NCBI RefSeq assembly: GCF_000420245.1
Contig: NZ_ATUO01000004.1
Coordinates: forward strand, 1-53,756
DNA length: 53,756 bases
Reading direction: 5' to 3'
Source: Psychromonas hadalis ATCC BAA-638
GTDB lineage: Bacteria > Pseudomonadota > Gammaproteobacteria > Enterobacterales > Psychromonadaceae
In this document: positions 8,630-44,948 of the stretch, piece by piece
Position numbering within the stretch: the stretch's first letter is position 1
Layout of the letters: each line of letters starts with the position of its first letter
Program-made: the position numbers and the translations under genes
Notes under the pieces: generated by a model
What the model saw: the letters and a program-made list of their open reading frames with translations, nothing else
What the model was told of the DNA's origin: nothing
Database searches by the model: none

Positions 8630-11293
8630 ATGACTGACATCTTAAACAGCGATATTGATGCACAAGAAACTTCAGAATGGCTTGACGCATTAGCCGATAT
8701 TCTTGAAGATGAGGGCGTAGAGCGCGCACAATTTATCCTTGAAAAAGTGATAGAAAAAGCGAAAGCAGATGGTGTTAACCTGCCACATGGTATTAATACC
8801 AATTATGTTAATACGATTCCACCTAGCCAAGAGCCGACTTACCCGGGCGACCTTAAAATTGAGCAACGTATTCGTTCTATCATTCGTTGGAATGCGATCA
8901 TGATTGTTATGCGAGCATCAAAGAAAGATTTAGACTTAGGTGGCCACATGGCTTCTTACCAGTCGGCAGCTGCCTTTTATGAAGTTTGTTTTAACCACTT
9001 TTTCCGTGCGCCTAATGCAATAGACGGCGGTGATTTAGTTTATTACCAAGGTCATATCTCACCCGGTATCTATGCACGTGCATTTGTTGAAGGGCGTTTA
9101 AGCGCGGCTCAACTCGATAACTTCCGTCAAGAAGTAGATGGTAAAGGTCTACCTTCATATCCGCATCCTAAACTATTACCAGAGTTCTGGCAGTTCCCAA
9201 CAGTTTCGATGGGTCTGGGTCCAATTACCTCTATTTACCAAGCGCGTTTCTTAAAATACCTAAATGGTCGTGGTCTTAAAGATACCACTGCGCAGCGTGT
9301 TTATGCTTTCCTTGGTGATGGTGAGATGGATGAGCCTGAATCTCGTGGTTCATTGTCGTTTGCAGCCCGTGAAAAATTAGATAACTTATGTTTCTTAGTA
9401 AACTGTAATCTACAGCGTTTAGATGGCCCTGTAATGGGTAACGGTAGCATTATTCAAGAGCTAGAAGGCCTATTTACAGGTGCTGGCTGGAATGTGGTTA
9501 AAGTTATTTGGGGAGGCAATTGGGATGCATTACTTGCCAAAGATACCTCAGGAAAATTATTACAATTGATGGATGAAACCGTTGATGGTGACTACCAAAC
9601 CTTTAAATCTAAAGATGGCGCATACGTGCGTGAACACTTCTTTGGAAAATACCCTGAAACAGTAGCCTTAGTTGCTGATATGACTGATGATGAGATATTT
9701 GCACTGAAACGTGGTGGCCATGATTCATCTAAACTGTTTGCTGCCTTTAAAAATGCAGAAGAAACAAAGGGTAAACCCACGGTTATTCTTGCTAAAACCG
9801 TGAAAGGTTACGGCATGGGCGCTGCCGCTGAGGGTAAAAATATTGCTCACGGCGTGAAGAAAATGAATGAATCGCACATTAATAGTTTACGTGACCGTTT
9901 AGGTTTACAAGAGTTATTAAGTGATAAGCAAACGGTTGAACTACCTTATCTGACATTAGAAGAGGGCAGTGAAGAGTACAAATACCTACATGCTCGCCGT
10001 GATGAATTACATGGTTACACACCACAACGTTCACCTCAGTTTAGTGGCAAGCTAGCAATACCGACATTGGAAAAATTTGCGCCTCTTTTACAAGAGCAAA
10101 AACGTGAAATTTCAACCACCATGGCTTACGTGCGTATCTTAAACGTATTATTAAAAGATAAAGGCATCGGTAAAAATATCGTGCCGATCATCTGTGATGA
10201 AGCACGTACTTTTGGCATGGAAGGTCTTTTCCGTCAAGTGGGTATTTATAACCCTGATGGTCAAGAATACACACCAGAAGACCGAGGTGTTGTCTCTTAT
10301 TATAAAGAAGCGGTTTCAGGTCAAGTATTACAAGAGGGTATCAATGAATTAGGTTCGATGTCTTCTTGGGTAGCAGCCGCAACTTCATACAGCACCAACG
10401 ACTTACCCATGATTCCGTTCTACATCTATTACTCTATGTTTGGTTTTCAACGTATTGGTGATATGGCATGGCTAGCGGGTGACCAACAAGCACGTGGTTT
10501 CCTATTAGGTGCTACGGCGGGTCGTACAACGCTAAATGGTGAAGGTCTACAGCATGAAGATGGTCACAGCCACATTCAAGCAAATACTATCCCTAACTGT
10601 ATCTCTTATGATCCCACCTTTGCGTATGAGCTTGCGGTTATCGTGCAGCACGGTATTGAACGTATGTATGGTGATAACCCAGAAAACGTTTTCTATTACT
10701 TAACGGTGATGAATGAAAACTACGCAATGCCAGCAATGCCAGAAGGTGCTGAAGAGGGTATTCGTAAAGGTATCTACAAACTTAAATCATATACAGGTGG
10801 CACTAAAGTTCAGTTATTGAGCTCTGGAACTATTATGAATGAAGTGATTAAAGCGGCTCAAATCTTAAGCGAAGAATACAATGTTGCGTCTGATATCTTC
10901 TCGGTTACCTCGTTTAACGAGTTAACACGTGAGGGTCAGAATATTGATCGTGAAAACATGTTAAACCCTGAAGCACCTGCAAAAATAGCCTACATCACCC
11001 AAGTATTAGGTGACGCGCCAACGATTGCTGCTACCGATTACATGAAAAACTATGCAGAGCAAGTACGTGCCTTTATCCCATCTAATACTTATAAAGTATT
11101 AGGTACTGATGGATTTGGTCGCTCTGATAGTCGCGCAAACCTACGTCGTCACTTTGAGGTAAATGCGGGTTACGTTGTTGTTGCTGCCCTTAGTGAGCTT
11201 GCAAAACGTGGCGATATTAACGCATCTGTGGTAACAGAAGCGATTGCTAAGTTTGATATTGATGTGAACAAAGTTAACCCATTATTTGCGTAA
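8630..11293 (+). CDS. aceE: Pyruvate dehydrogenase E1 component, homodimeric type
   Basis: The 887-residue enzyme decarboxylates pyruvate with thiamine diphosphate and passes the acetyl group to the lipoyl arms of AceF. The ThDP motif starts at GDGEMDEP near residue 229 and ends at NCNLQRLDGPV about 30 residues later. QHEDGHSH and related segments in the second half match E. coli AceE, and length equals the E. coli enzyme. GAAGGAAA is well placed before the ATG. It is the second gene of the PDH operon. The 260-base gap to aceF is filled by a double R1 repeat. Confidence 0.98.
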   Translation: MTDILNSDIDAQETSEWLDALADILEDEGVERAQFILEKVIEKAKADGVNLPHGINTNYVNTIPPSQEPTYPGDLKIEQRIRSIIRWNAIMIVMRASKKDLDLGGHMASYQSAAAFYEVCFNHFFRAPNAIDGGDLVYYQGHISPGIYARAFVEGRLSAAQLDNFRQEVDGKGLPSYPHPKLLPEFWQFPTVSMGLGPITSIYQARFLKYLNGRGLKDTTAQRVYAFLGDGEMDEPESRGSLSFAAREKLDNLCFLVNCNLQRLDGPVMGNGSIIQELEGLFTGAGWNVVKVIWGGNWDALLAKDTSGKLLQLMDETVDGDYQTFKSKDGAYVREHFFGKYPETVALVADMTDDEIFALKRGGHDSSKLFAAFKNAEETKGKPTVILAKTVKGYGMGAAAEGKNIAHGVKKMNESHINSLRDRLGLQELLSDKQTVELPYLTLEEGSEEYKYLHARRDELHGYTPQRSPQFSGKLAIPTLEKFAPLLQEQKREISTTMAYVRILNVLLKDKGIGKNIVPIICDEARTFGMEGLFRQVGIYNPDGQEYTPEDRGVVSYYKEAVSGQVLQEGINELGSMSSWVAAATSYSTNDLPMIPFYIYYSMFGFQRIGDMAWLAGDQQARGFLLGATAGRTTLNGEGLQHEDGHSHIQANTIPNCISYDPTFAYELAVIVQHGIERMYGDNPENVFYYLTVMNENYAMPAMPEGAEEGIRKGIYKLKSYTGGTKVQLLSSGTIMNEVIKAAQILSEEYNVASDIFSVTSFNELTREGQNIDRENMLNPEAPAKIAYITQVLGDAPTIAATDYMKNYAEQVRAFIPSNTYKVLGTDGFGRSDSRANLRRHFEVNAGYVVVAALSELAKRGDINASVVTEAIAKFDIDVNKVNPLFA

Positions 11294-11303
11294 ACAAACT
11301 TTT

Positions 11304-11326
11304 GGTTAACGATAAAGTCGTTAGCC
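11304..11326 (+). promoter_or_regulatory. Small hairpin just after aceE
   Basis: Nine base pairs (11304-11312 with 11318-11326, one wobble) close a 5-base loop, ending where the first R1 arm starts. There is no T tract. It could protect the upstream aceE message from 3' exonucleases; this is inference. Confidence 0.5.
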
Positions 11327-11534
11327 TTAGGAATCGTTACACAATAACTTGCGCTACATTGTTTTCAAAAAGCCTGAAGGGATTGTTACACAATAACTTG
11401 CCGATAAATTGTTTCCAAAAAGCCTTAAGTGACTGGCTATTTTAAAAACAAAATCGCAAGTAATGTTGAAGCCAATCCTAAATAACTGGCTATTTTGAAA
11501 ACAAAATCTCAAGTAATTTTGAAGCCGATCCTTA
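11326..11534. repeat. R1 palindromic repeat, double copy arranged A-A-B-B
   Basis: Two left arms (11326-11379 and 11380-11429) are followed by two right arms (11430-11480 and 11481-11534). A left arm is roughly the reverse complement of a right arm: shared blocks include ACTTGCG, TTGTTTTCAAAA and AGCC. The same element occurs once as A-B at 26799-26903. The order A-A-B-B is what is expected if one copy inserted at the centre of another. As RNA it would fold into a hairpin of about 200 bases between aceE and aceF. Confidence 0.88.
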
Positions 11535-11553
11535 ATTAATTAGGAAAATTATT

Positions 11554-13110
11554 ATGTCTGAATTAAAAGAATTTTTACTCCCTGATATTGGCGCAGATGC
11601 GGCTGATGTGACTGAAATATTAGTTTCTGTGGGCGATGTTATCGTTGAAGATCAAGATGTGATCTCAATCGAAGGTGATAAAGCGTCAATGGATGTACCT
11701 TCATCAGTTGCTGGTATCGTTAAAGAGATCAAGATGAACGTCGGTGATAGCGTTTCTGAAGGTCAAGTTGTACTGCTTATTGAAGTGGCTGGATCTGCTC
11801 CTGCTCCTGTAGCAGAAGATAACGTTGCACCTGTTGCTGAAGCCACGCCTGCTGCATCAACACAGCTTAAAGATGTTTGTGTGCCAGATATCGGTGGTGA
11901 TGAAGTTGAAGTCACAGAAGTATTAGTGTCTGTTGGTGATGCTATCGTTGCAGATCAAGATATCCTTTCTGTTGAAGGCGATAAAGCATCAATGGATGTT
12001 CCTGCCCCGTTTGCAGGCATTGTAAAAGAGATTAAAATTACTGCGGGCGATAAAGTGTCTGAAGGCACATTAATCCTCGTTGTTGAAGTACAAGTTGAAG
12101 CACAAGCTAGCGCGCAAGTTGCTCCTGCTAAAGCGGTTGAAACGCCTGCGCCAGTAAAAACGGCGCCTGTCGTTGCAAAACCTGCTGAGCCAGTTACAAC
12201 GGGTCCAATCAAAGCATCTCCTTCGGTACGTCGTTTAGCACGTGAGTTTGATCTTGATTTATCGCGACTTCCTGCAACGGGTCGTAAAGGTCGCACTACG
12301 AAAGAAGATGTGCAAACATTTATTAAAGCGCAACTTGCTATCGCTAAAAGTGGTGGCGGTGGTGGTCTACAAGTACTTCCTTATGCGGATATTGATTACT
12401 CGAAATTTGGTGAAATTGAGATTAAACCACTTTCACGTATTCAGAAGATCTCAGGTCCAGTATTGCACCGTAACTGGGTCACTATTCCACACGTAACGCA
12501 GTTTGATGAAGCGGATATCACCGATTTAGAAGCATTCCGTAAACAGCAAAATGCCATTGCAGCTAAACAAGATTTAGGTCTTAAAATTAGCCCGCTGGTG
12601 TTTATGATGAAAGCGGTTGCGAAAGCATTAAAAGAGTTTCCTAACTTTAATGCGGCCCTTTCAAATGATGGTGAAAGCGTCATTCTTAAGAAATACATTA
12701 ATATTGGTATCGCAGTCGACACGCCAAACGGTTTAGTTGTTCCTGTTGTTAAAGATGTAATCAACAAAGGTATCTACGATATTTCGCGTGAACTGGGTGA
12801 AATTTCTCAAAAAGCACGTAAAGGTAAATTAACAGCGAAAGATATGCAGGGTGGAAGCATGAGTATCTCAAGTCTGGGTGGCATCGGTGGTACTCAGTTT
12901 ACTCCTATCGTCAATGCGCCTGAGGTTGCTATTTTAGGTGTTTCAAAATCAGTGATGAAACCTGTTTGGAATGGCACTGAATTTAAACCTCGTTTAATGG
13001 TTCCACTGGCACTTTCATACGATCATCGTGTGATCGATGGTGCGGATGGTGCACGCTTCATTACAGCAATAAACAACTACTTATCTGATTTACGTACACT
13101 AATCCTATAA
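11554..13110 (+). CDS. aceF: Dihydrolipoyl acetyltransferase (PDH E2), two lipoyl domains
   Basis: The 518-residue core subunit transfers acetyl groups to CoA. Two N-terminal lipoyl domains each carry a GDKASMD lipoylation motif (Lys near 43 and 144), joined by Ala/Pro linkers. A peripheral subunit-binding domain (about 217-255; [15 protein letters not shown]) is followed by the acyltransferase domain with the catalytic DHRVIDG motif near 490. E. coli AceF has three lipoyl domains and about 630 residues, so this protein has one fewer; two-domain forms occur in relatives. TTAGGAAA precedes the ATG. It is the third gene of the operon, separated from aceE by R1 repeats. Confidence 0.97.
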
Positions 13111-19472: not shown

Positions 19473-19726
19473 AAATATTCCAAATAGGGTAAATAGTAAA
19501 AGTATAAATAACGTGACTCTCTGCTTCCACAGAGTAGGTTTGAAAGGAGATAAACTCAAGTTTACAGACAAAATCAGAAAGTGTAAATGCATTGTATTTT
19601 ATGTGATGAAGTGTAATAAATGTGTTTTTGTTGATCTGTATTAGGGTTTGTTGTCGGGGCTGTGAATGTGGTTTTGTACGGCTTTATTCAAAATCTATAT
19701 GCATGTGATTTTATCGAATATTTTTT

Positions 19727-20060
19727 GTAACTACTCAGGTCGTTGCCATTCAGTCTATTTTTTCGTTGAAAAATGCTCATTTATACCAATCGGAATAAAT
19801 AGCTGATCTATTTTACTGGTTAAAATAACTTACTTTTTCGTTATAATTTTCGTAAATAGAACAACTACTTACGTCAACTTTCGCCTGAATTAAGCTGTTT
19901 TTCCTGCGTAAAATTTAGATCACATTCTTAATCCAATTGCTATTAAACCACTAAACTGCGATTTTTCGTATTGAACTAAGCATAAATGGCTTAATCCTGA
20001 GCAATTACAGTCTGTTTTTATAAAAACACCCCAAATTTGAAGGAGTACTGAGTAGTTACG
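19727..20060. repeat. R2 repeat, copy 1, interrupted by R3
   Basis: The ends are inverted repeats: GTAACTACTCAG at 19727 and CTGAGTAGTTAC at about 20048-20059. The interior shares AAAATGCTCATTTA, CACTAAACTGCG and CATAAATGGCTTA blocks with copies at 33970 and 44720 (reverse orientation). It is longer than the others because the R3 element sits in its middle. Confidence 0.85.
19784..19942. repeat. R3 MITE-like element inserted in R2
   Basis: The 159-base element begins TACCAATCGGAATAA and ends TTAATCCAATTGCTA. The ends are imperfect inverted repeats of about 28 bases sharing a CAAT-GGA-TAA pattern and TGATCTA. It is flanked by TTA on both sides (19781-19783 and 19943-19945). The uninterrupted R2 copies have a single TTA at this site, so a 3-bp target duplication is directly visible. 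There is no coding capacity. Confidence 0.85.
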
Positions 20061-26798: not shown

Positions 26799-26903
26799 TT
26801 AGGAATCGTTACACAATAACTTACGCTAAATTGTTTTCAAAAAACCTGAAATGACTGGTTATTTTGAAAACAAAAACGCAAGTAATTTTGAAGCCGATCC
26901 TTA
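26799..26903. repeat. R1 palindromic repeat, single copy, between rapZ and npr
   Basis: One left arm (26799-26850) and one right arm (26851-26903) closely match the arms in the aceE-aceF gap. The right end supplies the TAA stop codon of rapZ (26901-26903, minus strand) and the left end touches the npr ribosome-binding site. The element therefore fills the gene gap exactly. Confidence 0.88.
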
Positions 26904-27746
26904 CTGTGAGCGTAAGCACTTGTGTTCAATTTGTACCTGATATTTATTTTTAAAGCGACTGGCAATCTGTTCAGTTAAGTAAACAGAGCGGTGTTTTCCA
27001 CCGGTACAGCCAATGGCAATAGTGACATAATTACGATTGTTATTTTCAAGGTGTGGAAGCCATGATTGAAACAGATTCTCAATTTGGTTTACGGTTTGTT
27101 TAACCAGTGGAAAAGATTCAAGATAGTCAATAATAGGTTGGTCTTGGCCACTGAATTTTTGTAGTTTCTCTTCCCAATGTGGATTAGGCAAAAAGCGCAC
27201 ATCAAAAATATAATCAGCATCTTCAGGGTGGATATATTTAAAACCAAAAGATTGAAAAACAATTAATAACTTACTTTTACTAGAACCCTGCAGATAAATT
27301 TTAATGCGCTCATTGAGGTTATGAATAGAGAGTGTGGTGGTATCTATCTCTAGTGCTGCATTTTTTCTAATTGGTTTTAGTAGCTCTTTTTCTAAAGCAA
27401 GTGCTTGGGAAAGTGATAATTTTTGTTTTGACAGGGGATGTAATCGTCTGGTTTCACTATAACGACGAATAAGCTCGGTGCTGATAGCATCAATATAGAG
27501 GATCTCCATTGCCACTTTTGCTTTTAGTGTTAGTAATAATTGTTCTATTTCTGATGCTTCATGAGGGAGATTGCGAATATCTAAGGTGATCGCTATTTTA
27601 TTATTTTTTGGATCGACACTATCAAGAAGTTGCTCTAACAGTTGAAAAGGCACACCATCAATACAGTTATAACCCAGATCTTCAAGCACCCGCAGTGCAA
27701 TCGTTTTTCCTGAGCCAGAACGGCCACTAATGATAATTAACTTCAT
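26901..27746 (-). CDS. rapZ: RNase adapter protein RapZ
   Basis: The 281-residue nucleotide-binding protein has a Walker A motif GRSGSGKT at residues 8-15 and a C-terminal domain containing IGCTGGKHRSVY. In E. coli RapZ binds the sRNA GlmZ and targets it to RNase E, controlling glucosamine-6-phosphate synthesis. It lies between ptsN and npr as in E. coli, 15 bases from the ptsN stop. Its stop codon belongs to the R1 repeat, so the last residues (HKCLRSQ) may have been changed by that insertion. Confidence 0.96.
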   Translation of the reverse strand: MKLIIISGRSGSGKTIALRVLEDLGYNCIDGVPFQLLEQLLDSVDPKNNKIAITLDIRNLPHEASEIEQLLLTLKAKVAMEILYIDAISTELIRRYSETRRLHPLSKQKLSLSQALALEKELLKPIRKNAALEIDTTTLSIHNLNERIKIYLQGSSKSKLLIVFQSFGFKYIHPEDADYIFDVRFLPNPHWEEKLQKFSGQDQPIIDYLESFPLVKQTVNQIENLFQSWLPHLENNNRNYVTIAIGCTGGKHRSVYLTEQIASRFKNKYQVQIEHKCLRSQ

Positions 27747-33969: not shown

Positions 33970-34134
33970 GTAACGACTCAGGTCGTCGCCATTTAAGATT
34001 ATTTCATCGTTGAAAAATGCTCATTTAAACGACTAAACTGTGCTTTTTCGCCTTGAACTAACCATAAATGGCTTAGCCTTGAGCATTTACAGTCTATTTT
34101 GTATAAAGCACCTAACGTTGAATTAGGTGCTGAA
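33970..34134. repeat. R2 repeat, copy 2, between mlaE and mlaD
   Basis: It starts GTAACGACTCAGGTCG eight bases after the mlaE stop and shares the AAAATGCTCATTTA, GACTAAACTG, CATAAATGGCTTA and ACAGTCTATTTTGTA blocks with the other copies. This copy lacks the R3 insertion. The right end is diverged and includes a 7-bp hairpin (34108-34114 with 34124-34130). Confidence 0.82.
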
Positions 34135-44719: not shown

Positions 44720-44920
44720 GCAACTATTCAGTAGCCTATAAAAATGAGTTTATTTATATACAAAATAGACAGTAATGCTCAGGGCTAAGCCATTTATGTC
44801 TAGTTCAAGGCGAAAATGCGCAGTTTAGTAGTTTAAATGATCATTTTTTACACGGTTATTGATAAACAACTGAAGTTTAACTTGAACAAATTTTAAATGG
44901 CAACGACCTGAGTAGTTACG
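44720..44920. repeat. R2 repeat, copy 3, reverse orientation, before erpA
   Basis: Read on the minus strand it runs from GTAACTACTCAGG (right end, 44908-44919) through the shared ACTAAACTGCGC and CATAAATGGCTTA blocks to an imperfect second end, GCAACTATTCAGTAG at 44720. It ends 29 bases before the erpA ATG, so it occupies the expected promoter region. It carries about 30 bases of extra sequence compared with copy 2. Confidence 0.82.
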
Positions 44921-44948
44921 AAAAGGTCACATCGAATTAGAGGTTAAC

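Follow-up and report, generated by a model that had tools for sequence, protein, structure and literature searches.

A MITE-like repeat family in Psychromonas hadalis with a self-nested form at the aceE-aceF spacer

The spacer between aceE and aceF of Psychromonas hadalis ATCC BAA-638 contains one copy of a mobile palindromic repeat inside another. It lies in a 53,756-nucleotide stretch of contig NZ_ATUO01000004.1, analysed here as a whole (the window). In structure, the repeats form a family of non-autonomous, MITE-like transposable elements, and the same nested arrangement is dispersed through the genome. We think it probable that this MITE nested within itself in a founder copy, that the composite was then re-amplified, and that one composite landed in the aceEF operon. 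On this reading it is a new MITE family that includes a self-nested and re-amplified form, not a new kind of system; open-access papers on Psychromonas MITEs and on nested bacterial MITEs gave no earlier account of the family.

The repeat family and its target

The element is a 99 bp, non-coding sequence bounded by terminal inverted repeats (GGAATCG..CGATCC), with an imperfect palindrome spanning its full length and forming a long imperfect hairpin. Arm profiles of 52 (A, left) and 53 (B, right) positions were used, both including the duplicated triplets. Two end patterns marked ~113 repeat-bearing regions in the P. hadalis assembly, a draft of 3.98 Mb in 351 contigs where roughly every second copy is close to a contig end; nested repeats are hard to resolve with short reads. 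Architectures were counted as clusters, some contigs being repeats of one locus. The resolved ones are AB (50 clusters) and AABB (20 clusters, 18 distinct loci), so that the genome-wide search proposed in the initial annotation did recover centre-inserted copies. The remaining architectures include ABB, AAB and AABAB, some cut by contig ends and some nested otherwise. Only one of 39 classifiable copies lies within an ORF.

Of the 73 full-ended copies, 40 have TTA and 16 have TAA as the boundary triplet on both sides (56 exact pairs). Left and right triplets were identical in 56 of 68 cases, against a mean of 32.5 and a maximum of 46 for shuffled pairs. The middle base of the triplet changes in step on the left and the right, which makes the duplication one of 3 bp and not of TA. 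The target is a palindromic motif, V-Y-TWA-R-Y, found at 31 of 55 insertion sites compared with 168 of 1960 (8.6%) intergenic TWA sites (p 2e-18). The repeat thus has the structure of a prokaryotic MITE: it is short (<500 bp), multicopy and mostly intergenic, with inverted ends and a duplication of fixed length.

A simple A-B copy of 99 bp occupies 26802-26900 on the forward strand, flanked by TTA at 26799-26801 and 26901-26903, and it too forms a long hairpin far better than shuffled sequence. The repeat had been described as left-right at 26799-26903 and left-left-right-right between aceE and aceF, which the sequence bears out apart from offsets of 1 to 3 bases. The right TTA of the simple copy is the stop codon of rapZ (26901-27746, reverse strand); the copy inserted at this TAA stop (26901-26903) and duplicated it. 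Several further copies abut the stop codons of neighbouring genes. Elsewhere, a tandem array of five A-B copies with a period of ~203-205 bp was seen in genome G019 (locus L036, 1299-2216), and an A-B copy at each of two loci (L116, 164-463, and L080) is split by ~300 bp of sequence whose ends resemble TATACCAAT..ATTGGTATTA and which appears to represent a separate small repeat family.

A trans-acting, presumably DDE-type transposase would insert the element at VYTWARY and produce the 3-bp TWA duplication. At 30 loci of DDE_Tnp_1 (PF01609) in four genomes (P. hadalis, G014, G060 and G061), element-like ends were no better than in shuffled sequence; DDE_Tnp_4 (PF13359) had no match in P. hadalis, nor DDE_Tnp_1_2 (PF13586) in any of the four. 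In two Desulfobacterales genomes, the left ends with no right end close by belong either to truncated copies or to ordinary copies whose right end has diverged, and no autonomous partner was found among them. That none of the DDE families searched supplied a transposase with the element's ends counts against our explanation. Plasmid, phage and viral-contig carriers gave zero matches to the element.

The composite between aceE and aceF

The genes aceE (pyruvate dehydrogenase E1; 8630-11293, forward strand; TIGR00759, 1475.7 bits, cut-off 859.9), aceF (dihydrolipoyl acetyltransferase E2; 11554-13110, forward strand; TIGR01348, 664.5 bits, cut-off 552.1) and lpd all lie downstream of pdhR. Positions 11327-11534 read TTA-[A1-A2-B1-B2]-TTA, a 202-bp palindrome within a palindrome that separates aceE from aceF. 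Arm models and subfamily comparison assign the outer left arm A1 (11330-11378, ending CCTGAA) and the outer right arm B2 (11482-11531, ending CGATCC) to subfamily I. Identities and diagnostic sites identify the unit between them, A2-B1 (11379-11478, 100 bp), as a complete subfamily II element at the apical loop of the outer one; all of these parts are on the forward strand. The right copy of the inner duplication is TAA (11479-11481) and the left copy is GAA (11376-11378). The outer duplications are TTA at 11327-11329, where sister species have the empty site, and TTA at 11532-11534.

The composite strand (226 nt) folds at -56 kcal/mol, while shuffles give -37.4 +/- 4.0 (z -4.6), which rules out a chance palindrome at 11327-11534 and agrees with the self-nested hairpin of about 200 bases that had been proposed for the PDH operon. 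Rfam covariance models returned nothing over the window at gathering threshold and only a chance-level microRNA match within 11290-11560; a known RNA family was rejected as the identity of the element, there being no curated match. Promoter and terminator signals in the spacer showed no excess over shuffles.

The spacer could be read in 21 genus mates, none of which holds the element, and most of their spacers are 56-68 nt long. The P. hadalis spacer of 260 nt equals 202 + 3 + 55, leaving 55 nt once the element and one TTA are removed. It also has a native intercistronic hairpin outside the MITE, GGTTAACGA-TAAAG-TCGTTAGCC (together GGTTAACGATAAAGTCGTTAGCC; 11304-11326, forward strand), and 20 of the 21 genus mates (L151-L171) have a hairpin at the same place whose sequence differs and whose stem is kept. 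This hairpin may serve the PDH operon as a conserved intercistronic control element. The composite sits directly 3' of it, and the ribosome-binding region of aceF is intact.

The composite may influence the E1:E2 ratio, but any such influence would come on top of a structure already present, the native hairpin. Speculatively, and with the balance somewhat against it, the transcribed double hairpin could be cut by RNase III or could shift the relative stability of the aceE and aceF messages; Correia and ERIC elements provide precedents for effects on mRNA processing (PMC2229807, PMC10969869). A stronger reading, in which selection maintains the double hairpin as a functional intercistronic RNA element that sets the E1:E2 ratio through RNase III processing or stalling, could draw on these precedents, on the strong fold of the whole spacer (-68 kcal/mol, z -5.5), on stem covariation across two phyla (described below), and on the aceEF mRNA of E. 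coli, which RNase III targets in the pdhR-aceE region and not between aceE and aceF (PMC5371410). We judge it unlikely: every relative examined lacks the element at this position, the same composite is found at 14 other unrelated loci, the spacer is already filled by the native hairpin, and the covariation belongs to the whole family and may stem from quasi-palindrome correction or a need of transposition. The aceEF copy offers a natural test of a large intercistronic hairpin against E1:E2 stoichiometry.

Nesting and spread of the composite

A subfamily II unit inside a subfamily I unit is present at 15 unlinked loci. Over these loci, inner units share 95.0% identity with each other and outer units 93.5%, whereas inner and outer units share 87.0% both within and between loci. 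Subfamily II copies are free in 6 cases and nested in 16. Both outer ends could be read at 13 composite loci, and the outer TTA or TAA duplications are exact at 11 of them. A composite shared by 15 loci, mostly with its own duplication at each, therefore appears to have been amplified as a unit, with the aceEF copy as one such insertion. The simplest account would be a single nesting event, after which the composite transposed as a whole, and from the comparison of copies we infer a single founder and mobility as one unit. In that founder, a subfamily II copy would have inserted at the apex of a subfamily I element; with the outer ends intact and the terminal sequences the same, the 202-bp composite would have remained mobilisable and spread to at least 15 loci; and one composite would have come to lie at a TTA downstream of the native aceE-aceF hairpin and upstream of the ribosome-binding site of aceF.

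The initial annotation had inferred that one copy inserted at the symmetric centre of another. The insertion itself is upheld by an inner unit that is complete, of a different subfamily and located at an apical-loop target, but the nesting event did not take place at aceEF, since the same composite occurs at 15 loci. Differences between the arms had been taken to show that the event was not brand new; they are mostly differences between subfamilies and so have no dating value. Nor is AABB the common full-length form with AB as its deletion product, an outcome named there as fatal to the idea: AB is the commoner, and the subfamily difference between inner and outer units excludes both such a deletion and a tandem duplication.

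The AABB order could also arise inside one hairpin by replication slippage or template switching, with no insertion. Long palindromes are liable to template switching, and in most copies the inner duplication is not an exact pair. We consider this origin exceedingly improbable, as the inner unit is complete, differs in subfamily from the outer one (87%), and starts and stops at transposition ends beside TAA.

Nested copies were found at two positions of the element only: in the apical loop, and at a GCTAAAT inside the element (L024, L076, L019). VYTWARY occurs in the subfamily I consensus only at GCTAAAT, and in the subfamily II consensus only at the apical CCTTAAGTG (CCTTAAATG being the form at the apex). 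Because both nest positions are the element's only VYTWARY matches and there is no general attraction to hairpin tips, target choice alone suffices for nesting, and nesting by ordinary transposition is well supported. With its own target motif at the apex and at GCTAAAT, the element would occasionally insert copy into copy.

We also considered a preference of the element for the tips of hairpins and terminators, of which centre nesting would be one case. Terminator-like hairpins are split at four loci (L004, L008, L014, L060), which at a strict threshold is 4 of 66 sites against 20 of 1999. Insertion sites show no overall shift relative to background TWA sites (p 0.7), so hairpin-tip or terminator targeting is unsupported as a general rule; since VYTWARY alone explains both nest positions, we regard this reading as very unlikely.

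Some further centre nestings involve other inner types. A type III inner unit is found at L086 and L094 and, in sister species G008, at L196; subfamily II lies within subfamily II at L092, L103 and, in G014, L194; L078 and L195 are TTA-type, and L193 is a further case (L193-L196 come from two sister species). The inner duplication is a perfect TAA/TAA at L101, L115 and L092. In the main composite it is usually the imperfect pair GAA/TAA, which counts against our account, as does the single orientation of all centre nestings, unexpected for a near-palindromic target. Type III composites also have the GAA/TAA junction, and the outer arms of the two in P. hadalis fall in different clusters. They may derive from the main composite by conversion, and the number of independent nesting events is therefore three to five; gene conversion among copies, which blurs this count, weighs against our explanation.

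These cases bear on the alternative that A-B copies came first at each locus and subfamily II copies entered each apex later and independently. The apex is a real target, and several of the nestings with other inner types (L078, L092, L103, L193-L196) are independent. For the main composite, however, repeated local nesting needs ~15 separate hits by the same subfamily in the same orientation, from a pool with few free subfamily II copies, into an apical target that is usable in just 10 of 41 simple copies; the GAA/TAA junction common to the composites is a further point against it. Such independent origins seem improbable, and amplification of one founder composite is preferred.

Hosts, covariation and related systems

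A scan of GTDB genomes with a 21-base end pattern gave matches in Psychromonas antarctica, P. arctica and Psychromonas sp. Urea-02u-13, and, in another phylum, in the Desulfobacterales (Desulfocicer vacuolatum DSM 3385, a Desulfobacula MAG and Desulfobacterales MAG.124). Genus mate G005 has loci in common with P. antarctica (L035 and L123). Among 60 sampled relatives, 16 have the element, all in the same genus. Two Desulfobacterales MAGs hold ~46 and 36 left ends, with TWA duplications. Although two of the three Desulfobacterales hosts are MAGs, D. vacuolatum is an isolate, which upholds this part of the host range. In one Desulfobacterales MAG, two loci (L180, L181) belong to a sister family that has ends GGGATCG/GGGACAG..CGATCCC, is flanked by TWA and shares the apical CCCTTAAAACATTGGG; it lies nested within copies of the present family or directly against them.

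Over 28 diverse units, hairpin pairing is kept in 90.9% of cells, with 46 two-sided changes compared with 15.3 in shuffles, and sliding the stem partners destroys the signal. The covariation may reflect selection on the folded strand or templated quasi-palindrome correction, between which the data do not separate. A single family with conserved ends and compensatory stem changes in both Psychromonas and Desulfobacterales makes recognition of a folded strand testable against recognition of ends only.

Several known repeats resemble the element in part. Correia/NEMIS elements are likewise ~105 bp non-coding intergenic hairpins in many copies that can be co-transcribed with their neighbours, but they are confined to Neisseria and have 26-bp inverted ends and TA-type insertion; the present element has another sequence and duplicates a TWA triplet. 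RUP of pneumococcus (107 bp) is similar in size, copy number and AT-rich hairpin; it differs in its TA duplication and IS630-Spn1 ends, and the RUP text searched contained no re-amplified self-nested form. ERIC and YPAL of enterobacteria are also palindromic intergenic mobile repeats able to affect mRNA, but are 127 and 168 bp long with other ends; YPAL duplications range from 3 to 26 bp (PMC2229807). REPINs (REP doublets moved by RAYT) share the ~100-bp intergenic hairpin with two inverted halves. REPs carry GTAG/CGTC tags (PMC3733652), whereas the present element has no such tag at its ends and has a DDE-like 3-bp target duplication, which is not expected of the REPIN/RAYT system. The IS5-related and eukaryotic PIF/Harbinger MITEs, like the present element, duplicate 3 bp (TNA or TWA), the target being TWA for PIF/Harbinger and ANT for bacterial IS5 (PMC4482050); no IS5-type transposase with matching ends was found for the present element.

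Insertion of repeats into one another is already known from pneumococcus (PMC3049150), while the open-access papers searched held no self-nested form that later amplified. Descriptions of length classes among bacterial hairpin repeats usually give no account of how they arose. In this family each stage can be followed, from a target motif inside the element, through nesting at that motif, to the spread of the nested form. Tentatively, and rather doubtfully as a general rule, palindromic mobile elements might grow by jumping into their own apical target and re-amplify as longer nested hairpins, a route to length classes in which the hairpin itself, covarying over two phyla, would be part of what the mobilising enzyme recognises.

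The window contains two other kinds of repeat. A further dispersed family of ~100-300 bp occurs in both orientations at 19722-20030, 33993-34112 and 44774-44924, and 12-bp tandem repeats (TGCACCAACTGT / TACGCCAACNGC) occupy the start of the window at 1-120.
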